From positions 1 through 62,077 of the forward strand of contig WGLT01000025.1 of the NCBI GenBank assembly GCA_016125425.1: a DNA stretch of 62,077 nt. The letters run 5' to 3'. The DNA is from Alphaproteobacteria bacterium. Its GTDB lineage: Bacteria; Pseudomonadota; Alphaproteobacteria; Caulobacterales; Parvularculaceae. Shown one piece after another: positions 1-22,898 of this stretch (the stretch's first letter is position 1; each line of letters starts with the position of its first letter). A program made the position numbers and the translations under genes. The notes below the pieces were generated by a model that was not told the DNA's origin, ran no database searches, and saw only the letters and a list, made by a program, of their open reading frames with translations.

Positions 1-744
1 AATGGATGCAGGCCAATGCGCTTGCGACACTGCGTCAGCGCCGGCGAGCCGTTAAATCCCGAAGTGATTGAGATTTGGCGAAACAAAATGGGAATGCAAA
101 TCTGCGAAGGTTACGGACAAACGGAGACAACAATTCTTTGTGGAAACTTCGAAGGCATGCCCGTCAAGCCGGGGTCCATGGGCTTGCCGGCGCCTGGCGT
201 CAATCTGCAGATTATCGATAGGGATGGCGAGATCGCTCCGCCCGGGCAGGAAGGGGATGTCGTCGTCGCAATTGAGCCCGATCGCCCCATGGGTCTTTTT
301 CTGGGCTACAAGAACGATCCGCAAAAGACCGCACAAAGTTTTGTGAATGGATGGTACCTTACAGGCGACCGCGCCTATAAAGACGAAGACGGATATTTCT
401 GGTTCGTCGGCCGGGGCGACGATGTCATCATTTCCGCCGGTTATCGCATCGGTCCCTTCGAGGTTGAGAGCGCGCTCATCGAGCATCCTGCCGTGGTCGA
501 ATCTGCGGTCGTGTCGAGTCCGGATGAGATTCGGGGCGAAGTGGTCAAGGCTTTCGTTGTCTTGGCGAAGAACCAAGCTCCTTCTGACGACTTGATTAGC
601 GAGCTGCAAGAGCATGTGAAGAGAACCACTGCGCCCTATAAGTATCCGCGTAAGATCGAATTCGTTACGAGTTTGCCGAAGACGATTAGCGGTAAAATTA
701 TCCGCAAAGAACTTCGGGAGAGAGAGTGGAAATCGCAGAAATAG
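1..744 (+). CDS. Acyl-CoA ligase (AMP-forming), 3' part
   Basis: This is the C-terminal part of an ANL-superfamily AMP-forming acyl-CoA ligase. The frame is open to the left edge, so the start lies outside the window. Visible motifs are EGYGQTETT (adenylate-binding A5-like), GWYLTGDR, GYRIGPFEVES (hinge) and the C-terminal lysine motif PKTISGKIIRKEL, so the C-terminal lid is intact. The fragment resembles the benzoate-CoA/medium-chain (ACSM-like) ligase branch. Its role would be ATP-dependent activation of a carboxylic acid to its CoA thioester in the cytoplasm. It lies 3 bp before a second, distinct ligase and is clearly in the same operon. The substrate cannot be told. GC and codon use are lower than in the right part of the window. 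Confidence 0.88.
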   Translation, partial: NGCRPMRLRHCVSAGEPLNPEVIEIWRNKMGMQICEGYGQTETTILCGNFEGMPVKPGSMGLPAPGVNLQIIDRDGEIAPPGQEGDVVVAIEPDRPMGLFLGYKNDPQKTAQSFVNGWYLTGDRAYKDEDGYFWFVGRGDDVIISAGYRIGPFEVESALIEHPAVVESAVVSSPDEIRGEVVKAFVVLAKNQAPSDDLISELQEHVKRTTAPYKYPRKIEFVTSLPKTISGKIIRKELREREWKSQK

Positions 745-747
745 CCA

Positions 748-2451
748 ATGAACTTGTCTCGACCAGCCGAAGCCTCGCGGGGCGCTCATACGCACGAAAC
801 CATACGATATCAACAAGGAACAATCGCAGCGTTATTTGAGGATAGCGCGACGAGGCATACGGATAGAGACTTTTTGTGCGCGCCTGCGGAAACCGCTGAG
901 ATCTACGGTCTGGAAGAGAAGGAGTATACGTACAGTCAGGCGTGGAGCCGGGTCGCCGAGCTGCATGCGGCGTACGTGCGTATCGGATGCCGGAGTGGCG
1001 TCAGAGTCGGCCTTGCGCTCGGAAACCGACTGGAATTTTTCCTGCACTTTCTAGCGATCAACGGGGCCGGGGCTAGCGTGGTCCCGCTGAGCGAGGCGCT
1101 TTCCGATGAAGAGCTCGCCTATCGAATTTTGCATAGCGAGTGCGCGCTGATTGTTTCATCATTAAAGGAAGAGAATCGATTCAAGGCAATTATTGATCGG
1201 CAAGGTCTGCAATTGTCTGTGGCGCTTTCTGACACGTTGGATACCGTGCCCGGAGAAATGATGACCGCGTACGGCGGCAATGATTTACGAGCGACGCCGT
1301 TGCAATCGGAAGCGGCGATTCTTTACACATCCGGCTCTACGGGTCATCCTAAGGGTTGCGTATTGACGAACGAATACTTCCTGGCTGTGGGCGAGCACTA
1401 CGCAACGATCGGCGGCTACTGCGCAATGGAGCGCGGACGCGACCGGATCATTACTCCGCTTCCCGTCACCCACATGAATGCTATGGCTGTGTCTTTCGTA
1501 GGGGCGATCCAATCGGGAGCATGTTTGATTCAGCTAGACCGGTTTCATCCCAATAGCTGGTGGCGAACCGTACGGGAATCGCGCGCGACGATCATGCATT
1601 ATCTCGGCGTTATGCCAGCGATTTTGCTTAAAGCGCCAGTCGCGGCGGATGAAGACTTTGGAGACCAAATAAAGTTTGGTTTTGGAGCGGGATGCGATCC
1701 GCGCCATCAATCCGCCTTTGAAGATCGCTTTGGATTCCCGCTAATTGAAGCGTGGGCGATGACGGAAACAGGCGCGGGCGCATGGATTACAGCCTCTCAC
1801 GAGCCTCGCCATGTCGGCTTGAGGTGTTTTGGCAAAGCGCCGGCGGGGTTGGATTGCAGGGTCGTCGATGATGCTGGTCGAGATGTTGCGATCGGCGAGC
1901 CTGGGGAGTTGCTCGTTCGGCGGGCTGGTCCCGATCCGCGACGCTATTTTTTTGACGGTTATCTGAAGGACGATGAGAGCACGAAAGAGGCTTGGCGCGG
2001 AGACTGGTTCCATACAGGAGATATCGTCAGCAAAGACACGGATGGCTCATTCTTCTTTGTCGATCGGCGGAAGAACATTATTCGCCGTAGCGGAGAAAAC
2101 ATAGCCGCCATGGAGGTGGAAGGCGTGCTGATGCAGCATCCAAAGGTGATGCAGTGCGTCGTAGCGCCTGTGCCGGACGAGATTCGCGGAGAAGAAGTCG
2201 CAGCCCTCATCGCGCAAGCGAGCGATTCAAACGAGACCCTGGCGGCCGAGATCTTTGAATTTTGTTGCAGCAAGTTGGTCTATTTTAAGGCGCCGGCTTA
2301 CATCGCATTTGTCGACAACATCCCCTTGACCGCAACGGGAAAGATAGAGCGGTCCGCCGCGAAAAGAATTGCGCGCGAGCTGGTGGCGACTAAGGCGTTT
2401 TATGATTTGACTGCTTTCAAAAGAACGAAGAGCCGTCAGAGGAGGAGATGA
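748..2451 (+). CDS. AMP-dependent acyl-CoA synthetase (CaiC-like)
   Basis: A full-length 567-residue ANL-family acyl-CoA ligase. The ATP-binding loop YTSGSTGHPKG lies near residues 193-203, AWAMTETGAG follows, then GDWFHTGD near 420 and the catalytic lysine motif PLTATGKIERS near 530. It resembles crotonobetaine/carnitine-CoA ligase and other ATP-dependent acyl-CoA ligases. It starts 3 bp after the preceding ligase and overlaps the next gene by ATGA, so translation is probably coupled. Two different ligases in one operon suggest two acid intermediates or an acid and its shortened product. The substrate is inferred to be an aromatic or polycyclic acid only from the neighbouring Rieske oxygenase. 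Confidence 0.88.
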   Translation: MNLSRPAEASRGAHTHETIRYQQGTIAALFEDSATRHTDRDFLCAPAETAEIYGLEEKEYTYSQAWSRVAELHAAYVRIGCRSGVRVGLALGNRLEFFLHFLAINGAGASVVPLSEALSDEELAYRILHSECALIVSSLKEENRFKAIIDRQGLQLSVALSDTLDTVPGEMMTAYGGNDLRATPLQSEAAILYTSGSTGHPKGCVLTNEYFLAVGEHYATIGGYCAMERGRDRIITPLPVTHMNAMAVSFVGAIQSGACLIQLDRFHPNSWWRTVRESRATIMHYLGVMPAILLKAPVAADEDFGDQIKFGFGAGCDPRHQSAFEDRFGFPLIEAWAMTETGAGAWITASHEPRHVGLRCFGKAPAGLDCRVVDDAGRDVAIGEPGELLVRRAGPDPRRYFFDGYLKDDESTKEAWRGDWFHTGDIVSKDTDGSFFFVDRRKNIIRRSGENIAAMEVEGVLMQHPKVMQCVVAPVPDEIRGEEVAALIAQASDSNETLAAEIFEFCCSKLVYFKAPAYIAFVDNIPLTATGKIERSAAKRIARELVATKAFYDLTAFKRTKSRQRRR

Positions 2452-3641
2452 GTTCATCCGGCGCGGGCAAGCGTGTCGATTACGGCGGCGTTGCAATCGC
2501 TGCGCCGACGACAATTGCCTATGAAAGGTTCTCGCGCCGGCCGGCGCAATGGTGGATCGGGCGCGCGCTTCGTGAAATGATCGAGTGCGCAGGCCTTGAA
2601 GTGCGTGCAGTGGATGGCCTGTCCGTTTCGTCTTTCACCCTTCTCCCGGACACGGTCGTTGGGTTGACGGAGCATTTTGGTCTGACGCCGCGTTGGGTCG
2701 ATCAAATTCCTATGGGCGGCGCGTCAGCCCTCGTCGCGCTGCGTCGCGCAGCAAGAGCAGTGCAAGCGCGCGATGCGGATATCATCGCTTGTATCGGCGG
2801 GGATACGAATGGCCCCGACTCATTCGGCGCGACTGTCGCGGGCTTCAGTAGGTTCTCACAAGACGCTATGTACCCCTACGGGGCGGCGGGGCCAAACGCC
2901 AATTTCGCCATGATCACGCGCGCTTACATGCAAAAATATGGCGCGAGGCGTGAGGATTTCGGCGCGATATGCGTCGCTCAGCGTGAAAATGCCCTGAAGA
3001 CGCCGCACGCGATGATGAAGAGACCGCTTAGCATGGAGGAGTATCTTTCCGCGCGTTTGATTGCTGATCCATTGCGGCTCTTTGACTGCGTGATGCCGTG
3101 CGCTGGCGCCGAAGGATTTTTGGTTTTGCGCGAAGAAACCGCGCTTTCTCTCGGGATACCTTATGTGCGATTGCTGTCCGCGATCGAACGGCATAACGCC
3201 TTTCCGGAAGACGATATTCAACTACGCGGCGGCTGGGCGGTTGATGTCGGAGACATGTGGTCAATGTCGGGCGTCAGACCGGATGATATAGATCTCTTTG
3301 AGAGCTACGACGACTATCCTGTCGTTTGTATGATGCAGATTGAGGATCTGGGATTTTGCCGGAAGGGCGAGGCGGCCGAGTTCATCAGATCGCACACGCT
3401 TACAGTCAACGGTTCGTTCCCGCACAACACTTCTGGAGGTCAATTGTCAGTGGGGCAGGCCGGCGCGGCTGGAGGATATTTGGGAACCGTTGAGGCAATC
3501 CGTCAATTAACGGGGCAAACTTTTGGTCCATCTGTACGAAACGCAAGATATGCGCTCGTGTCCGGCTTCGGCATGATCAATTTTGATCGAGGCGTCTGTT
3601 CAGCAGCGGCGATCCTTGGGTTGGGAAGAGCAGGTGGTTAG
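2448..3641 (+). CDS. Thiolase-fold protein, SCP2/Ltp2-like, lacking the nucleophilic Cys
   Basis: A 397-residue thiolase-superfamily protein of the SCPx/lipid-transfer type. The start ATG overlaps the upstream stop (ATGA) and follows a strong GGAGGA ribosome site. Where biosynthetic and degradative thiolases carry the acyl-accepting Cys, this protein reads IPMGGASALVAL (residues 87-98), with no Cys. The C-terminal glycine-rich motif reads NTSGGQLSVGQAGAAGG instead of a GHP.GATG type. Loss of the Cys is known in the steroid side-chain retro-aldolase Ltp2 family, whose members work with a DUF35 partner. The next gene encodes exactly such a DUF35 domain. I infer CoA-ester side-chain cleavage rather than classical thiolysis. 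The substrate is unknown. Confidence 0.82.
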   Translation: MSSSGAGKRVDYGGVAIAAPTTIAYERFSRRPAQWWIGRALREMIECAGLEVRAVDGLSVSSFTLLPDTVVGLTEHFGLTPRWVDQIPMGGASALVALRRAARAVQARDADIIACIGGDTNGPDSFGATVAGFSRFSQDAMYPYGAAGPNANFAMITRAYMQKYGARREDFGAICVAQRENALKTPHAMMKRPLSMEEYLSARLIADPLRLFDCVMPCAGAEGFLVLREETALSLGIPYVRLLSAIERHNAFPEDDIQLRGGWAVDVGDMWSMSGVRPDDIDLFESYDDYPVVCMMQIEDLGFCRKGEAAEFIRSHTLTVNGSFPHNTSGGQLSVGQAGAAGGYLGTVEAIRQLTGQTFGPSVRNARYALVSGFGMINFDRGVCSAAAILGLGRAGG

Positions 3642-4857
3642 AGATCGGAATTCGCGGCTGAAAGGTCCGGGCCCGTGCAGCGGGAGCGTTACGCCTGCGC
3701 CCCCAAGACCGAGTAGCCATGCGGCTTTTGTGTTGGCGGCGTACGCGGCGGAAGGATCATTGGTTCTGCAACATTGCGACGAATGCGGCGCAGTAATGTA
3801 TCCTCCAAGAGAGATATGTCCTGCGTGTCTTTCCGATGGTCTATCCTGGCGAGCGGAAAATGGCGATGGCGTTCTCATCGCGGAAACCACTTTGTATTCT
3901 AGCACGAGTGCTTACTTTCGAGAGCGCTTACCTTTGAGAGTGGGCGCAATAAGGCTCGATGTCGGACCGGTCATCGCAGCGCACCTTCGGATGAATGCGC
4001 ATGCCGGCGATAGAGTGAGAGTGACGGCGGTGACGGACCGGTCGGGAAACGCTGCATTTATTGCGAGTGCACAGCGGGAGCGCTGCGATATGGGAGAAGA
4101 AACGCTTATTGAAGAGTTTATCTGTCATCCAAGGAATCGAAACGTATTGATAACGAATGTATCGACGCCAACCGGATTGGCGATGGTCAAGTCGATGAGA
4201 GATCATGGTGCTCGGCAAATATACGCCGGATGCGCAGACCCCTCGATCGAATTCGCTGGAAAGAATGTTTTGACGGAGATGCAAGGTGTTTCCTTGGCGG
4301 CTCTCGATCTTCGTTCTTCCAGTTCCGTCGCTACGTTAGCGAGACAAATCGGGCATGAACTCGATATTTTGATCAACACGTCACATAGCCTCCGTCACGG
4401 GTCGATAACCTGCGCTGGTAGCTATGAGGCCGCGCGCAGTGACGCCGAGATTGAGATATTCGGCTTGATGCGGCTTTTCGAGGCGTTTGCGGAACCTATG
4501 CGCGTCAAGGCCTCAGGCGTCGGCCTAACGTCCGGAGCATGGGTGAATATCTTCTCAATATACGCCCTTGCAAACGCGCCGTCTTGCGGCGTGAGCGCAG
4601 CATTGCAGGCGGGAGCGTTCTCTCTGTCTCAAAGTATGCGCGCGGAATTCGCCGGATGCGGCGTTAAGCTCCTTAACGTCTTTCATGACAATGACGGTGC
4701 GGAAGATAGTCGATGGTCATCTGCGGTCGCCGCGGCCACTCTGGACGGGCTGTGCCGGGGACTTGAGACGGTCGTGGTCGGAGTCAGGGCGCGCGATATT
4801 TATAAGAGATGGCGGGAAGACCCGAGCGTTCTGGAGCGCGAGCTTGTGGAACAATAA
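3634..4857 (+). CDS. DUF35 OB-fold/zinc-ribbon protein fused to a degenerate SDR domain
   Basis: With GTG at 3634, which overlaps the thiolase stop, the product has 407 residues; an ATG at 3583 in the same frame would overlap far more. The N-terminal half is a DUF35 acyl-CoA-associated domain: a rubredoxin-like zinc ribbon with Cys48, 51, 62 and 65, then an OB fold. From about residue 165 a short-chain dehydrogenase fold follows, but its key positions are lost. The Rossmann motif reads TNVSTPTG rather than TGxxxGxG, and the catalytic Tyr-x3-Lys site aligns with Cys318 and Ala322. DUF35 proteins are obligate partners of Cys-less thiolase-fold aldolases, and this gene follows one directly. The SDR half is therefore probably structural or CoA/substrate-binding. 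I know of no named family with this architecture. Confidence 0.8.
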   Translation: MVRDRNSRLKGPGPCSGSVTPAPPRPSSHAAFVLAAYAAEGSLVLQHCDECGAVMYPPREICPACLSDGLSWRAENGDGVLIAETTLYSSTSAYFRERLPLRVGAIRLDVGPVIAAHLRMNAHAGDRVRVTAVTDRSGNAAFIASAQRERCDMGEETLIEEFICHPRNRNVLITNVSTPTGLAMVKSMRDHGARQIYAGCADPSIEFAGKNVLTEMQGVSLAALDLRSSSSVATLARQIGHELDILINTSHSLRHGSITCAGSYEAARSDAEIEIFGLMRLFEAFAEPMRVKASGVGLTSGAWVNIFSIYALANAPSCGVSAALQAGAFSLSQSMRAEFAGCGVKLLNVFHDNDGAEDSRWSSAVAAATLDGLCRGLETVVVGVRARDIYKRWREDPSVLERELVEQ

Positions 4858-4880
4858 ATCGGGGAGCGCCCACTTTGAAA

Positions 4881-5609
4881 ATGGATAAGGACTCAATAAC
4901 TATTGTCACTGGCGGCGCTGCCGGTATTGGGGCGGCTATCTGCCGGCGGCTCATGGATGACGGGCTGCGTGTTCTTATTATTGACTGCAAAAAGCCGGAA
5001 ATTGCGGACAGCCGCCTCGAATTTGTACGAGCGGATTTAGCTGACCGGATGGAAACTGCAGAAACCGCTCGAGAAATCGTCGAGCGGCGGCGGGTGTCGG
5101 GCATTGTGCATAATGCAGGAGTCATTCGGCCAGCCCCAGTAGAGGACTCATCGCTCGACGACCTTGACTACCTGACGGAACTGCATCTTGCGTCGATGTC
5201 GACGCTCGTGAAAGCAGCGCTTCCTGCTATGAAAAGCGCAAAGTTCGGGCGGATCGTCGGCATCTCATCCCGGGGCGCGCTTGGCTTGTCTATGCGAACA
5301 AATTACGCGGCGACCAAGGCTGGCATGATGGGCATGCTGAGGACATGGGCGCTGGAGTTGGGCCCTTTCGGGATTACTGCGAATTGCATAGCGCCAGGAC
5401 CAATAGAAACGCGCATGTTTCATGAGATTGTTCCGGAGGGAAGCGAACGAAAGAAGGCGCTTGCTGCGAGTATTCCGGTGAGGCGTGTCGGCGCGCCGGA
5501 GGACGTAGCGAACGCCGTTTCGTTCTTTATTTCCGCGGACGCGTCTTTCGTAACGGGGCAGACACTTTATGTATGCGGCGGCAGCAGTGTGGGGTCCGTC
5601 GTAATTTGA
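4881..5609 (+). CDS. Short-chain dehydrogenase/reductase (SDR)
   Basis: A classical SDR of about 242 residues with start ATG at 4881; a TTG at 4875 with better spacing to GGGGAG at 4861 is an alternative. The cofactor motif TGGAAGIG is at the N terminus, HNAG follows, and the catalytic NYAATKAG supplies Tyr and Lys. Unlike the SDR-like half of the gene before it, this one keeps every catalytic residue. It would oxidise or reduce a hydroxy/keto group with NAD(P), for example a beta-hydroxyacyl-CoA or the cis-diol made by the downstream oxygenase. It lies between the DUF35 gene (23 bp upstream) and the Rieske gene (18 bp downstream) in one operon. Confidence 0.85.
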   Translation: MDKDSITIVTGGAAGIGAAICRRLMDDGLRVLIIDCKKPEIADSRLEFVRADLADRMETAETAREIVERRRVSGIVHNAGVIRPAPVEDSSLDDLDYLTELHLASMSTLVKAALPAMKSAKFGRIVGISSRGALGLSMRTNYAATKAGMMGMLRTWALELGPFGITANCIAPGPIETRMFHEIVPEGSERKKALAASIPVRRVGAPEDVANAVSFFISADASFVTGQTLYVCGGSSVGSVVI

Positions 5610-5627
5610 TCTAAGGGAGGAAAGCGT

Positions 5628-6962
5628 ATGGGCGCGCTTGCTGGCGCCACAATGCGCCATATTGATCCGGGCGCACTTGTTGAAAATGACCGCGTTCACC
5701 GCTCGGTATACACGGATCCCGAAGTTTTCGAATTGGAAATGGAGCGGATCTGGGGAAAGGCGTGGATTTTCGTCGGCCATGAAAGCCAGGTACGGGAGCC
5801 CGGGCAATATTTCGCTACGAGCATCGCCCGGCAGCCTATCATTTTGGTGCGAGACAATAACGGCGCCCTGCAGGTTTTGTTCAATCGTTGCGCACACAAA
5901 GGCGCGATGCTGGTCGGTGATCAATGCGGCAAAGTCAAGGAATTGCGTTGTTGCTATCATGGTTGGCGTTTTGATCTGAGCGGGACTCTGATTTCGATAC
6001 CGCTAGAGAAGGGATATGACTGCACTGGATTTGGCCGGGGCGATCCGCAGGCGAACTTACAAAGAGCGCCGCGTTGGGCGAGCTATAGGGGATTCGTTTT
6101 CGCTAGTCTGAGCGAGGAGGGACCGGATCTCATCAGCTGGCTCGGCGGAGCGGCGTCTTCGATCGATAACATGGTTGATAGAGCGCCTGAAGGCGATCTT
6201 GAAGTAGCGGGAGGCGTTCTCCGTTTCGAACACGACAGCAATTGGAAATTCTTCGTTGAGAACTTGAATGATCTCATGCATCCGATGGTGGCGCATCAAT
6301 CTTCGAGCCTCACCGCGCGATCGTTAGCGAAGAAGATGCTCCCGCCGGATCGGCCGCCTCCTGCAGCTATTGAAATCCTTTCGCCGTTTACGGAGAGCTA
6401 TGGCTTTTTTGACGAGATGGGGTTGCACGCCTTTGATTACGGTCACGGATACTCTGGGGGGAAAACGAGCATCCACGCGCGTTATTCGGATATACCGGAA
6501 TATAATCGCCGGATGGAGGCGGCTTACGGAAAGGACAGGACAGCGGAAATATTGGCTGTCAATCGGCATAATACCGTCATTTATCCGAGCATGACGATTA
6601 AGGGCGCGATTCAGACGATGCGCGTCGTCAAACCGGTTGCCGTCAATAAGACCATAATCGAGTCTTGGACATTTCGTCTAAAAGGGGCGCCGGACGAGTT
6701 GTTGAGGCGATCCATTCTATACTGCAACTTGATCAACTCATCCGCAAATCTCGTCGGGCCGGATGATCAGGAGGCCTATTGGCGCCAACAATGCGGCCTG
6801 GAGAGCGTGGCTTCAGAATGGGTCAGCATGCATCGCGACGCGGGGCAAGACGAGGAGATTGCGCCAGGGCACTTTTATGCGAAGGGCTCGAGCGATCTCG
6901 CATTCAGAAATCAATACCGTGCTTGGCGCGGCTATATGGTCGATGAGGGATCTCCGCAGTGA
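5628..6962 (+). CDS. Rieske ring-hydroxylating oxygenase, alpha subunit
   Basis: A 444-residue large subunit of an aromatic ring-hydroxylating oxygenase. The Rieske [2Fe-2S] ligands are Cys88-x-His90 and Cys108-x2-His111. The mononuclear iron site is in NDLMHPMVAH, with Asp215 bridging and His218/His223 as ligands; a distal Asp ligand probably lies in GPDDQEAYW. The start ATG follows a strong AGGGAGG. The enzyme would hydroxylate an aromatic ring, or demethylate, with O2 and electrons from a ferredoxin and reductase that are not encoded in the visible part. The beta-subunit gene overlaps the stop by GTGA. The substrate is unknown; the context is CoA-ester catabolism. Confidence 0.9.
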   Translation: MGALAGATMRHIDPGALVENDRVHRSVYTDPEVFELEMERIWGKAWIFVGHESQVREPGQYFATSIARQPIILVRDNNGALQVLFNRCAHKGAMLVGDQCGKVKELRCCYHGWRFDLSGTLISIPLEKGYDCTGFGRGDPQANLQRAPRWASYRGFVFASLSEEGPDLISWLGGAASSIDNMVDRAPEGDLEVAGGVLRFEHDSNWKFFVENLNDLMHPMVAHQSSSLTARSLAKKMLPPDRPPPAAIEILSPFTESYGFFDEMGLHAFDYGHGYSGGKTSIHARYSDIPEYNRRMEAAYGKDRTAEILAVNRHNTVIYPSMTIKGAIQTMRVVKPVAVNKTIIESWTFRLKGAPDELLRRSILYCNLINSSANLVGPDDQEAYWRQQCGLESVASEWVSMHRDAGQDEEIAPGHFYAKGSSDLAFRNQYRAWRGYMVDEGSPQ

Positions 6963-7462
6963 ATTTTGTCTTCGATTCTGACAGGCTGGCGGTTCATTTC
7001 CGCATTTCGCAGTTCCTATATTACGAAGCAAGATTGCTTGACGAAAGGCGATGGAGCGAGTGGGACGGGTTGTTCACTGAGGATGGCGTGTATTGGGCGC
7101 CGGCGTCTCCGGAGCAACCAGATCCGGATAACCATGTCTCTCTCATTTATGATACGGATCTGCTCCGGAGAGTGCGGCTTGCGCGGTACGAGCACCCAAA
7201 CGCGTTTTCATTGCAACCATTTCCGAGAAGCGCGCATCTTGTCACGAATGTCATGATCGACGAGTACGATGAATCGACAGGGGAAATTCGAACAAATTCC
7301 CGATTTTTAATGTGTGAGTTTCGCCGCGGCGTTCAGCGTTTCTACGCTGGCGAATACGTTCATGATCTTATCGAAACCAATGGCGCGCTGAAGATAAGAT
7401 CAAAGAAAGCGACGCTGGTTAATTGCGAGGGTCCGCTAGAGAGTACGAGCCTGTATTTTTGA
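6959..7462 (+). CDS. Rieske oxygenase, beta subunit
   Basis: A 167-residue small subunit of an aromatic ring-hydroxylating dioxygenase with the NTF2-like cone fold. The N-terminal stretch around YYEARLLDERRWSEWDGLF and the following VYWAPAS are typical of this family. The GTG start overlaps the alpha-subunit stop by four bases, which indicates translational coupling for alpha3beta3 assembly. It is the last gene of the plus-strand operon; the next gene, paaK, faces it 16 bp away. No ferredoxin or reductase follows, so electron-transfer partners must be encoded elsewhere or to the left of the window. Confidence 0.88.
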   Translation: MNFVFDSDRLAVHFRISQFLYYEARLLDERRWSEWDGLFTEDGVYWAPASPEQPDPDNHVSLIYDTDLLRRVRLARYEHPNAFSLQPFPRSAHLVTNVMIDEYDESTGEIRTNSRFLMCEFRRGVQRFYAGEYVHDLIETNGALKIRSKKATLVNCEGPLESTSLYF

Positions 7463-7478
7463 GAACGGTTCGACCACG

Positions 7479-8786
7479 TTATTTTCTTAAATCACGAATG
7501 CGTTCAGCCTTTCCCATGGATCTCGGCACCATGCCGGGCGCGACTGTCTCCACCCGCACTGAAACGCCGATAAACTGTTTGATGCGATGAGCAAGTGCGC
7601 GTCCCGCAGGCGAATCCACATCACACGCGGCTGAATCTCGAGCTTCGACGATCACTTTGAGCTGATCGAGCCTATCCGGTCTGGAGACCTCGAGAATGTA
7701 ATGCGGAGCGAGCTCGGGAACGGCGAGAATATGCTCTTCGATTTGGCTCGGAAAAACATTAACGCCGCGAATGATCAGCATGTCGTCGGCGCGGCCCGTA
7801 ATACGCTCCATGCGGCGCATGGTGCGCGCCGTACCTGGAAGAAGACGCGTTAAGTCGCGCGTGCGGTAGCGTATGATGGGGGTTGCTTCTTTCGTGAGCG
7901 ATGTAAAGCACAGCTCTCCAAGCTCGCCGTCGGGAAGCGGCGCGCCTGTCTCCGGGTCCACAATCTCCGGAAAGAAGTGATCTTCCCAGATTGTCAGTCC
8001 GTCCTTGCTTTCTACGCATTCATTGGCGACGCCGGGTCCCATAACTTCGGACAAGCCATAGATATCGACTGCGTCAATGGCGAATGCTTCTTCGATTTCC
8101 GCGCGCATGGCGTCCGTCCAAGGCTCTGCGCCGAAAATGCCGATCTTCAACGAGCACTGGCGCGGATCATGTCCCTCGCGGCGGAATTCATCGAGGATCG
8201 CAAGCATATAGCTCGGCGTCACCATGATAATGTCGGGCTGGAAATCGCGGATGAGCTGCACCTGCTTTTCGGTTTGTCCGCCCGACATTGGGATGACCGT
8301 GCAGCCCAATGCCTCGGCGCCGTAATGGGCGCCGAGGCCGCCTGTGAATAGGCCATAACCGTATGCGACATGAACCTTCATGCCGGGTCTGCCGCCGGCG
8401 GCGCGGATAGAGCGCGCGACGACAGACGACCACGTCTCTAAGTCGCGTTTCGTATAGCCGACCACAGTCGCTTTTCCCGTGGTGCCAGAAGAAGCGTGGA
8501 CACGCACGACTTGCTCGCGCGGAACTGCGAAAAAGCCGAATGGATAAGCGCGCCGTAGGTCGTCTTTCGTTGTGAATGGAAATTTGGACAAGTCAGCCAG
8601 CGATTTGAAATCGTCCGGCGATATGCCAGCGGCGTCGAAAGCGCGACGGTAATGAGCCGAGTTTTGATAGGCGTGCCGAAGCGACCATTTGAGCCGCTGG
8701 GTCTGAAGGGCCGTCAGTTCGTCTCGGGATAGTTTTTCGCCGTCATCGAGGAGGGGGACGTATTCGCTCTGCGGCACGGGGCTCAT
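7479..8786 (-). CDS. paaK: Phenylacetate-CoA ligase
   Basis: A 435-residue PaaK-family ligase that converts phenylacetate, ATP and CoA to phenylacetyl-CoA. The length matches the family. The nucleotide loop SSGTTGK lies at residues 99-105, with YGLSEVMGPGVA and the C-terminal lid ending GMVPRSMGKAERIRDLR. It is transcribed toward the Rieske operon but is a separate unit. Its promoter carries a TetR-type palindrome (8850-8865). No other paa genes for phenylacetyl-CoA epoxidation are in the window, so the product may feed a pathway encoded elsewhere, or the ligase may serve another arylacetate. Confidence 0.93.
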   Translation of the reverse strand: MSPVPQSEYVPLLDDGEKLSRDELTALQTQRLKWSLRHAYQNSAHYRRAFDAAGISPDDFKSLADLSKFPFTTKDDLRRAYPFGFFAVPREQVVRVHASSGTTGKATVVGYTKRDLETWSSVVARSIRAAGGRPGMKVHVAYGYGLFTGGLGAHYGAEALGCTVIPMSGGQTEKQVQLIRDFQPDIIMVTPSYMLAILDEFRREGHDPRQCSLKIGIFGAEPWTDAMRAEIEEAFAIDAVDIYGLSEVMGPGVANECVESKDGLTIWEDHFFPEIVDPETGAPLPDGELGELCFTSLTKEATPIIRYRTRDLTRLLPGTARTMRRMERITGRADDMLIIRGVNVFPSQIEEHILAVPELAPHYILEVSRPDRLDQLKVIVEARDSAACDVDSPAGRALAHRIKQFIGVSVRVETVAPGMVPRSMGKAERIRDLRK

Positions 8787-8836
8787 TCCTGTGTGCTGGA
8801 AAGGTTGTAGAAATTATGAAAAGCAACGCAGCTTGG

Positions 8837-8865
8837 ATGGTATAATTGATCGACCGAACGGTCAA
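8837..8865 (-). promoter_or_regulatory. paaK promoter with TetR/PaaR-type operator
   Basis: A perfect palindrome GACCGAACGGTC occupies 8852-8863. On the minus strand, TTGACC (8865-8860) resembles a -35 box and lies partly inside it; TATACC (15-bp spacer) or TACCAT (17-bp spacer) could be the -10 box. Transcription would begin about 45 bases upstream of the paaK ATG. A GACCG-NN-CGGTC dyad is typical of TetR-family regulators and resembles the PaaR sites described for phenylacetate genes. No regulator gene is nearby. Repression relieved by phenylacetyl-CoA is an inference. Confidence 0.6.
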
Positions 8866-9021
8866 TTTTAGTGCGCTGCGCCGCCTGGCTACTGTAGCGG
8901 AGAGCTGGAACGGCCCACCGGTCCGATTGGAGGCGTTCTGGCGGCGAGCGCCGCATTCCGGCTTGCGAAACGGGAGGCGCCCGCGCCGGACGGCTATTTC
9001 TAGGCGTATCGAGGCGGGCGG

Positions 9022-12000
9022 CTATTCCGCGGCGGCGCGCAGCGGTTCGGCATGGTCCTTGGCGTGCTGCTTGATCCGAAGAATTTTCAAGGTGAAGCGC
9101 TCGATGCGGTCAACCCAAATCGCCGCCGCCGGCACGAAGAGCAGGCTGAGGAAAGTCGAAAATAGCAGGCCGCCAATAACCGCCACGCCCATGCCCTGGC
9201 GCAACGAGCCGTCCGCGCCGAATCCGGCGGCGACAGGCAGCATGCCGGCGCTCATGGCGAGGGTCGTCATGATGATCGGACGCGCACGCTTAAGGCCGGC
9301 GTCGTAGAGCGCCTCTTTAAGAGACATGCCTCGGTTGCGTTGCTCAACGGCGAAATCAACCAACAAAATCGAATTCTTCGTGACAATTCCAACAAGCATG
9401 ACAATGCCGATGAAGACGAAGAGCGAGATCGGCTGTCCTGTGACCGCAAGACCGATGGCGGCGCCGGCGAGGCACAACGGAAGACCGGTCATGATCGTCA
9501 ACGGCTGAAAGAAATCACGGAAAAGAAGCACGAGCACGAGATAGACGAGCAGAAGACCCCAGAACATTGTGCTGGCGAACGCCTCTGTGCTGTCTTGAAG
9601 CGCTTCGCTGTCTCCGCTGCGGCCGAGTGTGACGCCGGCGGGCAGATTTTTCGCTTCCGGTAAGTTTTCTATCGCCTGTAAGGCGTCGCCCGGCTGCCCG
9701 CTCAGTAGATTGGCCAAAACCGTGACGCTCCGTTGACGGTCGCGCCGTTCGATTGTCGAGACGCCGACGCCCGGAACAATATCTGCGACCGCGTCCAGTC
9801 GAACCGAGCCGCCTTGGGTGGTTGGCACGCGAAGACTGCGTATGACGTCAATATTCGTCCGCGCCTCGTCGGTCAGACGCACGCGGATCGGCACCTGCCG
9901 ATCCGATACGTCGAATTTGGCAAGATTGCGGTCGACGTCGCCGCTCGTTGCAATCCGAAGCGCGCTTGCAATGGAGGCGGCTGACACGCCAAGTCGCGCT
10001 GCTTCTTCCGGCTTTGGTCGAATCTCAAGTTCGGGACGTTTGAGGCTCGTTGAGGCCCGCACTTCAGTCAGCTGCGGCAGGTCCCGGCGCATCGCGGCGA
10101 CAAGCTTTTCAGCCGCACCCATCACCTTCGCCGGGTCGTCGCCCGTCAATTCGAGATCAATGTCTGCGCCGCGGCTTCCGCCCTGAAAGTTCTGGAACGA
10201 CAGCCGCACGTCTGGGATTGTCGCCAGGATCGGTCGCATGGCTTGCTGGACCTGGTAGTCGGAACGCTTGCGTTCTTCTCGCGGCGTTAGCTGATAGTTG
10301 ATCGACCCTTTCGAGACTTGGCCGTTGGCGCTGCTCGCCGAAGTGAAGATTGAGATGATTTCTGGAATCTTGCTGGTTTTCGTCGCTACATTTGACAGAA
10401 TTCTGTCAGCTTCTTCCAGCGTTGTGCCCGGAGGAAACTCCGCTTGCAGATTCAACGCGCCGTTATCCATGCGCGGGATAAACGTCATCGGCATTTGCGT
10501 CATGGCGAAAACGGCGGCAAAAAAGGAGACGACCCCTGCCGAAATTGGGGCGATCGGGTGACGCAGGGAGAATCGAAGCGCTTGTTCGTAGCGGCGCTGC
10601 AGGAAAGAAGGCTTCGGCGGCTTATGCGCGTGTTTCAAAAAATAGGCCGCCATCATCGGTGTGATTAGGCGGGCGACAAGCAGTGAGAAAAACACGGCGA
10701 TCGCAACAGTAATCCCAAATTCACGGAACCAGACTCCCGTCTGCCCGCCCATGAAAGATACAGGCAAGAACACAGCTATGATTGTTGCGGATGTCGCAAC
10801 GACCGCAAGGCCGATTTCGTCTGCGGCTTCGAGCGCCGCTTGATAAGGCTTTTTGCCCATCGACATGTGGCGGGAGATGTTTTCGATCTCGACGATCGCG
10901 TCATCGACTAGAACTCCTGCGACAAGCGCCAGCGCGATCAGCGTCATGATGTTAAGTGTGAAATTCAGCGGTAAGAGCGCTGCAAAGGTCGGAATTGTCG
11001 CAAGAGGAATCGCGACCGCTGCGATCACCGTCGCGCGCCAGTCGCGAAGGAATAGGAACACGACAAGGACAGCCAGAAATGCGCCTTCCCCGAGAGCCTC
11101 GATCGATCCTTGATGCAAGCCTTTGATGAAGTCGACTGGCGTGAAGATGAGCCTGAAATGCACGGGGCCTTTGGCGTCCAGCTCTTTCACCTTGGCGATA
11201 ACTCGGTCGGTGACATCGACTTCGCTCGTGCCCTTCGCGCGTTGGACTAATACGCCGATTGCGGGTTGGCCGTTAAAGCGCAACAATTGTGTCGGCTCGC
11301 TCGCTGTGTCGCTAACGGCGCCGAGATCACGCAGTCTTACCGAACGGCCGTCGGGAAGAGCGATCATGCGCGTTGCGAGAGCGTCCACCGTCTCAGCGCC
11401 GCCGAGCGTTCGAATAATCTGAGCCTGACCGCCGAGTTCGGCGCGTCCGCCGGGCAGGTCGACATTCGATTGGCGCAGCTGGCGGCTCACTTCATCGGCA
11501 GTGATGCCGAATGCTTCGAGACGGCCGGGATCCAGCGCGACACGAATTTCCCGGTCGACGCCCCCAAGCCGTTGAACGGCGGCTACTCCTTTGAGCCCGA
11601 GCAATTCCCGGGTCAGGGTACGGTCGACATAATAGGAAAGATCCTGCGCCGTCATCGCGGGATTCTCGACCGCGAAGTATGCGATCGGCTCGCCTGACGC
11701 GTCATAGCGGCTGACTTGCGGCTCATCGACTTCCTGCGGAAGGTTTGCACGAATGCGGGCGACGGCGTCGCGCGCATCCTCGACGGCGCGGCTGACGTCA
11801 GCGCCGATTTGCAGTTGGATGTCCGTCGAAGAGACCCCTTGGCTGACTGTCGAAATGATTTTGTCGACGCCAGTCACGCCCGTCAGCGCCGCTTCGACCT
11901 GCTGCGTGACCTGCGTTTCGAGATCGCTCGGAGAAGCGCCAGCTTCCGTAACTGTGACGTTGACGACGCCAAACTCGATATTGGGTATCTGATTAATCGG

Positions 12001-12105
12001 CAAACGGAAATAAGCAGTCAATCCTGCGACTGTCAGCGCAAGAAACAATACGACCGGCGGGATTGGGTTCTTGATCGCCCAAGCGGAAACGTTGCGAAGA
12101 TCCAT
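9022..12105 (-). CDS. RND efflux permease (HAE-1, AcrB-like)
   Basis: A 1027-residue inner-membrane resistance-nodulation-division transporter. Family features include an N-terminal membrane helix, two large periplasmic loops, GVLVDDAIVEIENISRH in TM4 (the proton-relay Asp pair) and GIVTKNSILLVDF in TM10 (relay Lys). Length and layout fit hydrophobic/amphiphilic exporter 1 proteins that expel drugs, dyes or solvents together with an adaptor and an outer-membrane channel. The adaptor gene lies immediately upstream, 4 bp away. No TolC-type channel gene is adjacent, so it would use one encoded elsewhere. Confidence 0.92.
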   Translation of the reverse strand: MDLRNVSAWAIKNPIPPVVLFLALTVAGLTAYFRLPINQIPNIEFGVVNVTVTEAGASPSDLETQVTQQVEAALTGVTGVDKIISTVSQGVSSTDIQLQIGADVSRAVEDARDAVARIRANLPQEVDEPQVSRYDASGEPIAYFAVENPAMTAQDLSYYVDRTLTRELLGLKGVAAVQRLGGVDREIRVALDPGRLEAFGITADEVSRQLRQSNVDLPGGRAELGGQAQIIRTLGGAETVDALATRMIALPDGRSVRLRDLGAVSDTASEPTQLLRFNGQPAIGVLVQRAKGTSEVDVTDRVIAKVKELDAKGPVHFRLIFTPVDFIKGLHQGSIEALGEGAFLAVLVVFLFLRDWRATVIAAVAIPLATIPTFAALLPLNFTLNIMTLIALALVAGVLVDDAIVEIENISRHMSMGKKPYQAALEAADEIGLAVVATSATIIAVFLPVSFMGGQTGVWFREFGITVAIAVFFSLLVARLITPMMAAYFLKHAHKPPKPSFLQRRYEQALRFSLRHPIAPISAGVVSFFAAVFAMTQMPMTFIPRMDNGALNLQAEFPPGTTLEEADRILSNVATKTSKIPEIISIFTSASSANGQVSKGSINYQLTPREERKRSDYQVQQAMRPILATIPDVRLSFQNFQGGSRGADIDLELTGDDPAKVMGAAEKLVAAMRRDLPQLTEVRASTSLKRPELEIRPKPEEAARLGVSAASIASALRIATSGDVDRNLAKFDVSDRQVPIRVRLTDEARTNIDVIRSLRVPTTQGGSVRLDAVADIVPGVGVSTIERRDRQRSVTVLANLLSGQPGDALQAIENLPEAKNLPAGVTLGRSGDSEALQDSTEAFASTMFWGLLLVYLVLVLLFRDFFQPLTIMTGLPLCLAGAAIGLAVTGQPISLFVFIGIVMLVGIVTKNSILLVDFAVEQRNRGMSLKEALYDAGLKRARPIIMTTLAMSAGMLPVAAGFGADGSLRQGMGVAVIGGLLFSTFLSLLFVPAAAIWVDRIERFTLKILRIKQHAKDHAEPLRAAAE

Positions 12106-12109
12106 GACT

Positions 12110-13384
12110 TTATCCCGCCTTACCGGCGTCGCCGCCGCGCGCAGTCGTCTCTGGGGGGCCGTCAGGGGCGACGGTGCGGACCGGATCGCCGTCGAGCAAA
12201 AATGCGCCGCCGGCGGCGGCGATGGTCTCGCCGCCTTTCAACCCCGACATCACAGCGACGAAGTCTCCATCGCGAACACCTAACGTCACCGGCGTGAGAT
12301 GCGCTCTCCCGCTTTCAATTACGAAAACGCTTGGCGAGCCAGTGGCGTAGCTGATCGCAGCCTGTGGTACGGCGAGGGCGGTCAACTTCTCGATGACGAC
12401 ATTTCCCCGCAGATACATCCCCGATCGGATATCTGCGTCTTTCGGCAAGTCAAAGAGTGCGACGCCGGTGCGTGTCTTCGAGTCGACGGCGACGGGCGGT
12501 ACGCGCAGGGTCGCCTTTACAAAAGCGCCGCCGCTCGTTTCGAACGTAGCGTCTTGTCCTGGCTTCAAGGACAATATGTCAGGTTCGGCGACTTCCGCAG
12601 CGACTTCAAGACGGTCATCGCCGACGATGCGAAACAATGATTGGTTGTCCGCCATTTCCCCGACTCGTGCGTTGCGTTCGATAACGAGCCCTGAGGCGGG
12701 AGCGCGTATGTAGCCGCCCTGCACACGCGCCTTCAGCTGTTCAAGGGCGGCCTTCTTTGCAGCGAGTTGCGCTTTGGCTGCCTCCGCCGCGGCGCGCCTC
12801 GTCGCGATTTCCTCTGTCGACAACGCTGCATCCTTGTCGGCGGGGCCGATGCGCGCATAATCCTCCGCAGCGCGCCTTTGTTCGATCTCTGCGGCGCGGA
12901 CTTCGGCCTCGGCCTGCTGTATCTGCGCTTCAACAAGGCCCGCGTCGAGACGCGCGAGCGGCTGGCCTTCCTTCACCTGATCGCCGATCTCGGCCATCAC
13001 TTCGGCGATGCGCACGCCGGTGGCCGGCGCGTAGACACGAACGTCATGGACAGGACGCGCTTCGCCTGAAACGGGGGCCGTTTTCTCGAATTCGCGCTTT
13101 GTGACAGAGATTGCGGTGACGAGTTGGATATTTGGCGCTGATTTCGTCTTTTCTTTTTTGTCGTTTCTTGTAGCCGGTTTAGCGGGCGCTGCGGCGGCGT
13201 CCTGCGTTTGGGGCCGGGCGCTCGCGACCTCGGAGCCGGGCGATCCTGTCATTTGCGTGACGACGAATCCGGCGAAGCCAAGCATGCCGACGACCAAAAA
13301 GGCCCCCACTGCGCCACGCCAAAAACGACGCCGGCTCGAGGCCGCGCCGGACTCACCCAAGGTCTCGACTGACTTCATTTTCAC
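12110..13384 (-). CDS. RND periplasmic adaptor (membrane fusion protein)
   Basis: A 424-residue HlyD/AcrA-type adaptor. A single N-terminal membrane helix (residues ~24-45) is followed by a Pro/Ala/Lys-rich linker (residues ~55-85), then the lipoyl/barrel half with MAEIGDQVKEGQPLARLD, a helical hairpin rich in Ala, Glu and Gln (~150-210), and the second lipoyl half GYIRAPASGLVIERNARVGE. It links the permease encoded downstream to an outer-membrane channel. The start ATG at 13384 is the first in the frame. A perfect 16-bp palindrome about 190 bp upstream may be the operator of the two-gene operon. Confidence 0.88.
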   Translation of the reverse strand: MKMKSVETLGESGAASSRRRFWRGAVGAFLVVGMLGFAGFVVTQMTGSPGSEVASARPQTQDAAAAPAKPATRNDKKEKTKSAPNIQLVTAISVTKREFEKTAPVSGEARPVHDVRVYAPATGVRIAEVMAEIGDQVKEGQPLARLDAGLVEAQIQQAEAEVRAAEIEQRRAAEDYARIGPADKDAALSTEEIATRRAAAEAAKAQLAAKKAALEQLKARVQGGYIRAPASGLVIERNARVGEMADNQSLFRIVGDDRLEVAAEVAEPDILSLKPGQDATFETSGGAFVKATLRVPPVAVDSKTRTGVALFDLPKDADIRSGMYLRGNVVIEKLTALAVPQAAISYATGSPSVFVIESGRAHLTPVTLGVRDGDFVAVMSGLKGGETIAAAGGAFLLDGDPVRTVAPDGPPETTARGGDAGKAG

Positions 13385-18531: not shown

Positions 18532-19611
18532 ATGAACAAACGGCGCGTTTACATTCTTTTAGCCCTTGCAGCGGCTCTGGTTCTCGGCGCGTGCTCAAAG
18601 GAGCGTAGCGCGGAGGCCTCTGCAAACGCGTCTATTGCGCCGGATGCAGAAGCCTTCACGGTCGAAGAGCGGGAGGTTCCCGATTACAAGCCGCTCGCTG
18701 CGGTGCTTACTAATCGCGATGCGGGTGCGGCGCGCGCACGGATTAGCGGCACTCTGAGCAAGCTCACCGTGCGTGAGGGCGACGTGGTGAAGAGGGGCGA
18801 AATCATAGCAGTCGTCTCTGACCAACGACGCGTGCTGGAGGAAAAAGCGGCAGGCGATGATGTCGCCGCTGCTGAGGCCAGGGCGAGCAAGGCTAATGCA
18901 GACCTCAAGCGGGTGCAGGAACTGTTTGACAGCGGCGTTTACGCCGAGGCGCGACTCGACGATGCAAAAGCCGCGGCGCGCAGCGCTAACGCGCAGCTCA
19001 ATGCGGCGCGTTCTCGCCGAGACGCGATGAAAGAGGCGACCGATCAGGGCGATGTGCTTGCGCTGGCCGACGGACGCATCACCGACGCGCCCATTCCGGA
19101 AGGCGCTGTCGTCATGGCCGGCGACATTATCGCACGCATAGCCACTGGGCAGCGCGTCCTTCGCGTTGAACTGCCTGAAGCAGAGGCACGCGACATCCAT
19201 GAAGGCACTGAAATAAAGTTGACCTCGGCTGGACACGGCGACATAGCAAAAGTCGTTCAAGTCTATCCGGCGATCGAAAACGGCCAGATCGTCATCGATA
19301 TCGATGCGAGCAAGTTCAGCGATGAATTCGTCGGCATTAGGACCCCGGTTCTTGCGCCGATTGGCGCAAGACGCGCGATCATTATCCCGGCCGATTTCGT
19401 CACCACCCGCTATGGGGTCGACTACGTGCGGCTTGTGCGGCCCGACGGGGCAGTAATAGACGCGCCGGTTCAGCTTGGCGCGCGACTTCCGACCCTAGAC
19501 GGCGAAGACGGCGTTGAAATTCTTTCCGGGCTCGCGCCTGGAGACAAAATCTTGCCTACCGAAAAGCCGGCGGAACGTCTTTCAGCCAAAGCGATGAAAG
19601 GCGGATCATGA
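18532..19611 (+). CDS. RND periplasmic adaptor lipoprotein
   Basis: With ATG at 18532, behind GGGGGAAG, the product is 359 residues. It begins with a lipoprotein signal peptide ending in the lipobox VLGAC, so it is anchored in the inner membrane by lipid. The lipoyl half TVREGDVVKRGEIIAVVSD, a short coiled-coil hairpin rich in Ala and Asp, and a beta-barrel follow. It overlaps the permease gene by four bases (ATGA). It is divergent from sqr across a 260-bp shared regulatory region, which suggests a link to sulfide stress. The longer frame starting at 18469 lacks a signal sequence and is rejected. Confidence 0.86.
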   Translation: MNKRRVYILLALAAALVLGACSKERSAEASANASIAPDAEAFTVEEREVPDYKPLAAVLTNRDAGAARARISGTLSKLTVREGDVVKRGEIIAVVSDQRRVLEEKAAGDDVAAAEARASKANADLKRVQELFDSGVYAEARLDDAKAAARSANAQLNAARSRRDAMKEATDQGDVLALADGRITDAPIPEGAVVMAGDIIARIATGQRVLRVELPEAEARDIHEGTEIKLTSAGHGDIAKVVQVYPAIENGQIVIDIDASKFSDEFVGIRTPVLAPIGARRAIIIPADFVTTRYGVDYVRLVRPDGAVIDAPVQLGARLPTLDGEDGVEILSGLAPGDKILPTEKPAERLSAKAMKGGS

Positions 19612-22600: not shown

Positions 22601-22898
22601 TATAAGCCATGCAAAGAGCTCGAACCGTTCTATGCGCGAGGTTCTGCTTGAAGCGGGGGCGATTCGGTTCAAACCAATCTTGCTCACTGCGCTTGCGGCG
22701 ATGATCGGCGCCAGCGTCATTCTCTTCGATCCGATTTTCCAGGGGCTGGCGATCTCGCTTTTGTTCGGACTCGCTTCATCGACGATCCTGACGGTTCTCG
22801 TTATTCCGGCCGTCTATATCGCGCTCAGAGATGACGGACGGCCGCTGGCTGATGAGTCGCACGAGCCTGATGGCGTCGAGCCCGCACCGGCGCATTAG
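19608..22898 (+). CDS. RND efflux permease (AcrB/AcrD/AcrF superfamily)
   Basis: A 1096-residue RND transporter, longer than the pump at 9022-12105. N-terminal TIPREEEPQISVPLVDI marks a subgroup found in many proteobacteria. GILVDDAIVIIENIARH supplies the relay Asp pair of TM4, and IIVRNSILLVDF lies in TM10, where Arg replaces the relay Lys seen in the other pump. The C terminus is hydrophilic and acidic. It forms a coupled operon with the lipoprotein adaptor. Its substrate is unknown. The shared intergenic region with sqr suggests export of a sulfur-related or sulfide-induced compound. Confidence 0.88.
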   Translation: MKLGLSGRLTKATIGSPLTPLFLLAAIAVGVLAVLTIPREEEPQISVPLVDISVRADGLKAMDAVELITKPLEAIVKGVDGVEHVYSQTEDDQVLVTARFYVGTDPDDAITRIQSKIRANYDRIPIGIPEPHIVARGINDVPIVVVTLTPTRQAADRWNDQSLYEVADELQAELMKVKDVGLTFIAGGRPKEIRVEPDPAKLALFGVPLGSLIDVVKSANATFSAGTILDRDKTETVKVGRTLDDPSEIGLLTVPTGDGRSVYLRDVAKVTLGPREDRERAWRFDRGPDGVEMAPAVSVAIAKRAGANAVVVSKAIEQRLHELEGALIPDGIKADVTRDYGETANEKANELLLHLGLATISIVVLIAFTIGRREAGVTFVVIPTTILLTLFASNLMGYTINRVSLFALIFSIGILVDDAIVIIENIARHWAMKDGRSRTEAAIEAVAEVGNPTIIATLTVIAALLPMMFVSGLMGPYMAPIPANASAAMLFSFLVAVIIAPWLMSKLSPRGADAAIRMDETKTGEFATSAVISTGAHGAGGLGKFYRRIASPVIRTRRSAWRFLIVVGLATLAACALFATKTVRVKLLPFDNKSELQVVVDLPEGSTLEATQRVLIDAARIAAETPEALSVDAYAGTASPFNFNGLVRHYYLRSKPELGDLQVTLKPKGERRRASHAIALDLRKRLAALETPAGTVVRVVEVPPGPPVIATLLAEVYGPDAATRRAVATKVRQIFSSIPYIVDVDDSFGEPRPRLRLTIDRPQLEYFGLSESDVDSSIAALFGGDAVGYSHRGEGRNPIEISIRLPQSGRSWSQVLAATPVGRSKDGRLVELGEVVKPVEEKGSYPIFRRDARYAEMVTGELAGAFEAPIYGMLDVDAAIKKSDWAPFATPEIRLHGQPEDESKPSVLWDGEWEITYVTFRDMGAAFAVAILGIYILVVAQFKSFKLPLLILTPIPLTLVGIVFGHILFNAPFTATSMIGFIALAGIIVRNSILLVDFISHAKSSNRSMREVLLEAGAIRFKPILLTALAAMIGASVILFDPIFQGLAISLLFGLASSTILTVLVIPAVYIALRDDGRPLADESHEPDGVEPAPAH

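Follow-up and report, generated by a model that had tools for sequence, protein, structure and literature searches.

Gene organization at the left end of the window

We analysed a 62,077-nucleotide stretch of DNA, hereafter the window, comprising positions 1 to 62,077 of contig WGLT01000025.1 (assembly GCA_016125425.1) from an alphaproteobacterium of the family Parvularculaceae. Using open reading frame (ORF) calls together with Pfam and NCBIfam domain searches, we were able to identify a compact same-strand gene run that fills positions 1-7462. We consider it probable, at roughly three chances in four, that positions 748-7462 are a divergent iad block for degradation of the auxin indole-3-acetic acid (IAA), with the gene order F-G-H-J-D-E, joined to the 3′ end of an aromatic-amine-dehydrogenase operon and serving a route from tryptamine through IAA to isatin. 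The genes are listed below, with identities to the corresponding proteins of Labrenzia and Sulfitobacter unless stated otherwise.

1..744, + strand: acyl-coenzyme A (CoA) ligase 1, C-terminal 247 codons; AMP-binding domain; cut by the contig end; part of the amine-dehydrogenase module
748..2451, + strand: IadF homologue, acyl-CoA ligase (ligase 2); AMP-binding domain; 48-50% identity
2448..3641, + strand: IadG homologue, thiolase fold without the thiolase catalytic residues, YDDY motif; Thiolase_C_1; 62-63%
3583..4857, + strand: IadH homologue, DUF35 domain plus degenerate short-chain dehydrogenase/reductase (SDR) domain; zf-ChsH2/OB_ChsH2_C; 38-39%
4809..5609, probable start ATG 4881, + strand: IadJ homologue, SDR with YxxxK; 50-58% identity overall, 50% to Labrenzia/Sulfitobacter
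5628..6962, + strand: IadD homologue, Rieske oxygenase alpha subunit; 7yls/8h2t at E 2e-142; 45-46%
6959..7462, + strand: IadE homologue, Rieske oxygenase beta subunit; Ring_hydroxyl_B; 33-46% to the beta subunits of loci L004-L008, 33-36% to Labrenzia/Sulfitobacter
7479..8786, - strand: PaaK phenylacetate-CoA ligase; TIGR02155 at 713.5 bits (cut-off 646.3)

Only 3 bp separate the ligase 1 stop from the iadF start, and 4-bp overlaps occur between ligase 2 and the thiolase-fold gene and also between the Rieske alpha and beta genes. An initial annotation, made from the letters of the window, had described seven coupled genes here. The compact run and the families it named were confirmed; however, its DUF35 gene and one SDR gene are a single fused ORF of 424 codons (3583-4857) in which Pfam places the DUF35 domain and a second, degenerate SDR domain, and the run continues on another contig. 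The start of iadH may lie downstream of 3583.

The core genes match the iad pathway

The initial annotation recognized no named pathway in this gene order, but the core genes match the described iad locus, whose substrate, IAA, is known; such a match is an outcome that it had itself named as refuting its proposal. Homologues of IadF, IadG, IadH, and IadJ lie within one operon, and the adjacent Rieske alpha/beta pair is homologous to IadD/IadE. A homologue of IadI (55% identity) is found on contig C25, where isatin hydrolases matched at E 5e-107, and no NCBIfam model matched it at 1e-20. None of the proteins scanned from the joined region, a scan that covered part of its ORFs, is a MarR regulator; a TetR-type gene heads the upstream module, and a MarR protein is encoded near iadI on C25.

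Comparisons with published systems draw on PMC9613470, PMC10374108, PMC11630574, PMC12329534, PMC12633357, and PMC6117287. The Variovorax comparison is direct for a PDB chain only; for the other proteins Labrenzia and Sulfitobacter stood in, their iad letters being assigned from protein families and from the preprint PMC12633357. The annotated operons of Labrenzia sp. THAF35 (L006) and Sulfitobacter faviae (L007), both from plasmid records, encode the same protein set and agree with the window in adjacency; their order is MarR-C-D-E-F-G-H-I-J with a TRAP transporter, and no amine dehydrogenase is annotated in the fetched stretches. As in the iad locus of Variovorax paradoxus CL14/CL014 (PMC9613470, PMC10374108, and PMC12633357), genes D, E, F, G, H, and J are adjacent, iadI is present in the genome, and the IAA pocket is kept; unlike that locus, the window reads F-G-H-J-D-E, no iadC was found, iadI lies elsewhere, and an amine-dehydrogenase operon is attached. 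The C25 protein likewise resembles the isatin hydrolases 5nmp, 5nna, 5nnb, and 4j0n (PMC6117287) but is encoded apart from the other iad genes.

The Rieske oxygenase retains the IAA pocket

The best PDB matches of the Rieske alpha subunit are 9o71 and 7yls/8h2t (E ~1e-142), and we take 7yls/8h2t to be the Variovorax IadD from the fit of its numbering. The numbering of 7yls agrees at 14 of 14 residues (4 Rieske ligands and 10 pocket or iron residues) with the Variovorax IadD paper, PMC10374108, whose text gives no such PDB code. The window IadD is 49.8% identical to 7yls over 420 aligned residues, and all ten of the IAA-pocket and iron residues named in that paper are identical: N210, L211, H216, H221, F251, H311, K322, R329, Y362, and D377. 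A published survey of auxin degraders used a 50% identity cut-off for the oxygenase; the window protein falls just below this value, so auxin degraders of this kind may be undercounted.

Residue counts in an alignment of 53 sequences show that two of the ten positions are the most discriminating. F251 and K322 are kept in the window group (11/11, including two duplicate records), an intermediate group (3/3), and a large group (35/35), or 49/49 iad-like sequences, a figure that includes, in the large group, locus L005 with no G or H match seen. These residues are Asn/His in three paralogues and Leu/Leu in the anthranilate-dioxygenase outgroup. The other eight tell less: L211 is Gln in 28/35 of the large group, and the three paralogues share the seven that remain. 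Two of these paralogues (L004 and L008) have no F-G-H match in the fetched stretch, and the third (L042_2) is an additional copy next to an iad locus. Since pCAR1 and a Variovorax megaplasmid have Rieske matches of similar identity with no F-G-H matches, we judged alpha-subunit identity alone to be non-diagnostic and used the pocket residues instead. The record of one Variovorax match, H1, is unannotated in the stretch concerned. In a tree of 51 rows computed by a quick method, the window IadD falls in a group of nine (Shimodaira-Hasegawa-like approximate likelihood ratio test support 100) with members of its own family, one of the Lysobacterales, and one of the Thiotrichales, apart from a large group holding Alcaligenes, Achromobacter, and Labrenzia.

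IadG and IadH resemble a DUF35-dependent retro-aldolase

With catalytic positions set by alignment to 7yvy, all 81 IadG sequences (80 loci plus the window) have Gly91 where thiolases carry the nucleophile Cys, Tyr287 in place of the first catalytic His, and Gln337 in place of the His of the GHP motif. Both G90-G91 and Y287-D-D-Y are invariant. The predicted IadG model (mean predicted local distance difference test score, pLDDT, 82) has as its best PDB matches the aldolases Sal-Shy(DUF35) (9myr) and Ltp2-ChsH2(DUF35) (6ok1), in which Sal Y302 and Ltp2 Y294 align with IadG Y287. In these alignments, D289 pairs with Sal C304 and Ltp2 H296, and Q337 with Sal Q352 and about Ltp2 Y344. These steroid retro-aldolases (PMC12329534) share with IadG the thiolase fold, the missing nucleophile, a conserved Tyr base, a DUF35 partner, and the beta-hydroxyacyl-CoA type of substrate. 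They differ in having YDCY or YDHF where IadG has YDDY, with Asp replacing the essential Cys304 of Sal, and in a DUF35 domain that is fused to a hydratase, whereas that of IadG is alone or fused to a degenerate SDR.

Of 88 loci (80 scanned and eight of relatives), 83 show a DUF35 zinc motif after IadG; four of the rest break off before that point, and one has N at that place. The 83 comprise 68 with a long C-terminal part (L016 and L121 being duplicate records), 10 with a stand-alone DUF35 (9 distinct, L013 duplicating L114), and 5 that are cut. When the ten stand-alone loci were searched with the SDR part of IadH, three weak matches were obtained (E 2e-6 to 8e-6); two of them fall at the IadJ position, and the third lies ~8 kb from IadG. 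In an alignment of 68 long IadH sequences (67 loci and the window, shorter or less similar ones being dropped), the four zinc Cys are invariant (68/68); the SDR Tyr is kept in 24/68 and the Lys in 3/68, with 64 substitutions and one gap, and the window reads Ser...Gln. For the control IadJ, both Tyr and Lys of YxxxK are found in 35/36 sequences, and both are present in the window copy. The predicted IadH model (pLDDT 85.5) retains the SDR fold, nearest to 5u4s, and the residue pattern suggests that this domain is dead.

Judged by sequence and model, IadG together with IadH would be a retro-aldolase yielding isatin and acetyl-CoA. A tertiary alcohol on the beta carbon of dioxindole-3-acetyl-CoA chemically blocks thiolysis, so that retro-aldol cleavage would give isatin and acetyl-CoA directly, and such a release of isatin fits the presence of an isatin hydrolase. 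The chemical logic of the initial annotation, which combined CoA activation, retro-aldol loss by a Cys-less thiolase fold with DUF35, and Rieske oxygenation of an aromatic acid, was sound as a set of predicted reactions.

An amine-dehydrogenase module continues the operon upstream

The left edge of the window is a terminus of contig C2 in the 2.87-Mb genome, and the first 141 bases are identical to the end of contig C1. The initial annotation had called for extending the contig leftward; joining C1 and C2 through this overlap completes ligase 1, an open 548-aa protein starting on C1, and adds a same-strand amine-dehydrogenase module of ~11 kb. The joined ligase 1 is collinear with its homologues in three relatives (535-541 residues aligned, 59-70% identity). 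The genes on C1 are, in order:

TetR-type regulator
amine dehydrogenase heavy chain
MauE
MauD
amine dehydrogenase light chain
two small cytochrome c-like proteins, one of them with no Pfam match
TonB-dependent receptor
ligase 0
aldehyde dehydrogenase
ligase 1

The heavy chain matches aromatic amine dehydrogenase (AADH) at E 3e-34 versus methylamine dehydrogenase at 2e-22. As in the AADH system (aralkylamine dehydrogenase, with a tryptophan tryptophylquinone (TTQ) cofactor), heavy and light chains are accompanied by MauD, MauE, and cytochrome c-like genes; the difference is that the module here lies upstream of iad. The NCBI models for methylamine dehydrogenase were not reached (TIGR02658, 106 bits against a cut-off of 454; TIGR02659, 169 against 197), and no AADH-specific model turned up in domain scans of the module proteins. 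Divergent from the TetR-type gene are genes for a metallo-beta-lactamase-fold protein and a flavin adenine dinucleotide (FAD) monooxygenase, with a P450 farther out (L003:11786-15911); homologues of the first two adjoin the amine-dehydrogenase module of the relative G007 as well.

The module also occurs by itself in related genomes. In G007, where it is separate from iad, it reads TetR-AauB-MauE-MauD-AauA-cyc1-cyc2-TonB receptor-ligase 0-aldehyde dehydrogenase-ligase 1-PaaK, and in G001 it is identical from MauD on, where the contig begins. In three relatives, two from the same genus and a third from the same family, ligase 1 is followed by a PaaK gene in the same orientation. In the window genome, ligase 1 and an inverted PaaK flank the iad block.

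We observe amine dehydrogenase genes beside iad genes in two other lineages too. In G120 (L113), from another family of the same order, AauB-MauE-MauD-AauA-cyc1-cyc2-aldehyde dehydrogenase is followed, past a divergent MarR gene, by C-D-E-F-G-H-J on the same strand, with no IadI match seen in the stretch. In Allopusillimonas soli and A. ginsengisoli (L057 and L084; 2/80 loci), iad is followed closely by an amine dehydrogenase encoded on the opposite strand, and no aldehyde dehydrogenase match was found in either stretch. Among 148 relatives, with the window genome excluded, AauA was found in 9, IadG in 8, and both in 4 (Fisher p 4e-4), three of the four belonging to one genus. In the open-access literature, surveyed by titles and the openings of abstracts and with most subscription papers outside its reach, we recognized no report tying an amine dehydrogenase to iad or naming IadG an aldolase.

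Conservation of the gene neighborhood

Using the IadG alignment, we scanned for further loci and examined the best 80 of at least 553, seeking neighbors within 10 kb. H and I were each found in 68 of the 80, E in 41, D in 39, J in 38, and C in 17. A ligase ≥40% identical to F is present in 48/80; 22 more have only a 30-40% match, which may be another ligase. Genes missing from this set mean little, since short loci, and loci with D/E at another site, are numerous. The homologues thus do co-occur in other genomes, which was the check that the initial annotation had proposed, and the gene combination is not due to chance. The order F-G-H-I-J-D-E without C occurs in L016, L038, L055, and, within the same family, L120, so the window order, which lacks only I, looks like a lineage type from which IadI has become separated. 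In G001 (L119) and G003 (L122), IadF and IadG form a single reading frame of ~940 codons.

Proposed route and alternative explanations

The co-direction of the iad block with the amine and aldehyde dehydrogenase genes implies a path from tryptamine to isatin. A TTQ amine dehydrogenase would oxidize tryptamine in the periplasm to indole-3-acetaldehyde, which the aldehyde dehydrogenase would convert to IAA. IadD/E with a reductase, and then IadJ, would yield dioxindole-3-acetic acid, and IadF would make its CoA thioester. With the DUF35 domain of IadH holding it, IadG would cleave this tertiary beta-hydroxyacyl-CoA by a retro-aldol reaction to isatin and acetyl-CoA, and IadI, the isatin hydrolase encoded on C25, would open isatin to isatinate; the genes next to iadI suggest onward flow via 2-aminobenzoyl-CoA. 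This scheme rests on gene content, homology, conserved neighborhoods, active-site residues, and the predicted IadG fold, from which we infer the reactions in this organism, the tryptamine substrate, and the retro-aldol step. By analogy, tryptamine is the presumed amine because IAA is the substrate of the homologous oxygenase and in view of the substrates of AADH enzymes. Phenylethylamine is likely to be a substrate too, since PaaK and a paa cluster are present. Contig C17 (L012) carries paa phenylacetyl-CoA epoxidase genes (PaaA_PaaC family, two copies), consistent with phenylethylamine breakdown through PaaK.

Several observations weigh against the tryptamine-to-isatin reading. The iadI gene is outside the operon, and the genome contains no dedicated IadC, the sole match being a PaaE-like reductase of the paa cluster (E 1e-11); in the stretches fetched from the same family (L114, L119, L120, and L121) no IadC match was found either, and iadC was dispensable in some strains according to PMC10374108. 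The window IadD, 49.8% identical to the Variovorax protein, falls in a different clade from IadD of the usual C-D-E-F-G-H-I-J order, non-iad paralogues are not clearly outside both groups, and the tree software flagged long branches. Neither the second catalytic residue of Sal (Cys304) nor that of Ltp2 (Tyr344) is present in IadG, which has Asp289 and Gln337 instead, the Gln as in Sal. On the amine side, the light chain does not discriminate between aromatic and methylamine types. Three same-genus genomes with both modules keep them apart, by 418 kb in G007 and on different contigs in G001 and G008, and the AADH module ending in PaaK in G001 and G007 points to phenylethylamine as the older substrate. 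Among 384 genomes of the class, AauA occurs in 11, IadG in 10, and both in 1, unlinked (p 0.25), so co-occurrence is not significant at this level.

Four alternatives were considered. That the iad/amine-dehydrogenase join is an assembly artefact or functionally meaningless is unlikely. The contig break inside ligase 1, with its 141-bp overlap, could be a branch mark of strain variation, PaaK follows ligase 1 in relatives, and the class-wide count gives no support; but the 3-bp, operon-like spacing between ligase 1 and iadF lies within one contig, ligase 1 is collinear with its relatives across the join, and further linkages exist in G120 and Allopusillimonas. It is also unlikely that the block degrades some other arylacetic or indolic acid, such as one derived from phenylethylamine or tyramine, by iad-like chemistry with a different oxygenase substrate. 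This reading would accommodate the PaaK-terminated AADH modules of two same-genus genomes and one same-family genome, the organism's own paa cluster, and the identity of under 50% and separate clade of IadD, but not the full set of conserved pocket residues, including F251 and K322 that differ in the three paralogues, nor the isatin-hydrolase homologue, as isatin from a retro-aldol step requires an indole-derived acid.

Removal of the side chain by IadG as a ketothiolase and IadH as an alcohol dehydrogenase is an improbable explanation, although it is the published one. The preprint PMC12633357 (October 2025) inferred the steps past dioxindole-3-acetic acid from annotation and has acyl-CoA synthase, ketothiolase, and alcohol dehydrogenase remove C2H2O2 to give C8H7NO2, which accumulates without IadI; its assignments count against a retro-aldolase. 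However, in 81/81 IadG sequences Gly replaces the nucleophile Cys and Tyr and Gln replace the two catalytic His, IadH lacks the SDR Lys in 65/68 sequences and is without the SDR domain altogether in 9 distinct loci, and on chemical grounds a C3 tertiary alcohol is unable to become a beta-keto thioester. Isatin and isatinic acid have also been reported from Variovorax cultures. If the retro-aldol reading holds, the preprint's C8H7NO2, the formula of dioxindole, would be a reduced side product. The initial annotation's suggestion of a new catabolic route, with phenylpropanoid, steroid, or diterpenoid acids as possible substrates, retains almost no weight: the thiolase fold is indeed nearest to the steroid aldolases Sal and Ltp2, but the nearest solved Rieske alpha subunit is of the IadD type and not a steroid oxygenase, the partner genes are iad genes, and the IadD pocket, the isatin hydrolase homologue, and the operon match led us to reject such substrates.

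We therefore prefer the iad reading, in which a known core occurs in a divergent lineage; what is new is its unusual attachment to amine oxidation and a strong reassignment of two enzymes. Taken together, the lost catalytic residues, the fold resemblance to Sal and Ltp2, the DUF35 versions that stand alone, and the isatin hydrolase offer a chemically simple alternative to the preprint's roles for IadG and IadH, and the locus shows that a coupling of iad to amine oxidation can occur. More tentatively, we propose a Parvularculaceae tryptamine-to-isatin operon in which iad was captured by an amine dehydrogenase operon, a DUF35-dependent thiolase-fold retro-aldolase of a third, YDDY type, whose IadH partner carries a dead SDR, releases isatin, and a 2-oxoacid:ferredoxin oxidoreductase possibly turns isatinate directly into 2-aminobenzoyl-CoA for a neighboring monooxygenase/reductase; we put this fuller version at somewhat below even odds.

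Genes near the isatin hydrolase and right of the locus

On C25, IadI has as neighbors both subunits of an indolepyruvate-type ferredoxin oxidoreductase, an enoyl-CoA hydratase, an acyl-CoA dehydrogenase, and a salicylyl-CoA 5-hydroxylase/oxidoreductase family protein (1268 bits, cut-off 1078) that we take to be a putative 2-aminobenzoyl-CoA monooxygenase/reductase. A 2-oxoacid:ferredoxin oxidoreductase alpha homologue is found near IadG in 26/80 loci. The subunits near isatin hydrolase are located as follows:

L093:19293-19701, L011:51-3451 and 7110-9407 (contig C25): 2-oxoacid:ferredoxin oxidoreductase subunits

This enzyme may convert isatinate to 2-aminobenzoyl-CoA, or indolepyruvate to IAA-CoA.

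To the right of the locus, genes of a resistance-nodulation-division (RND) efflux pump occupy window positions 9022-13384 and 19608-22898 (ACR_tran, two; HlyD-type fusion protein, one). In 3-kb steps, G+C content is ~55.5-63% up to 39 kb and ~63-67% beyond, with positions 1-7462 at 55%.

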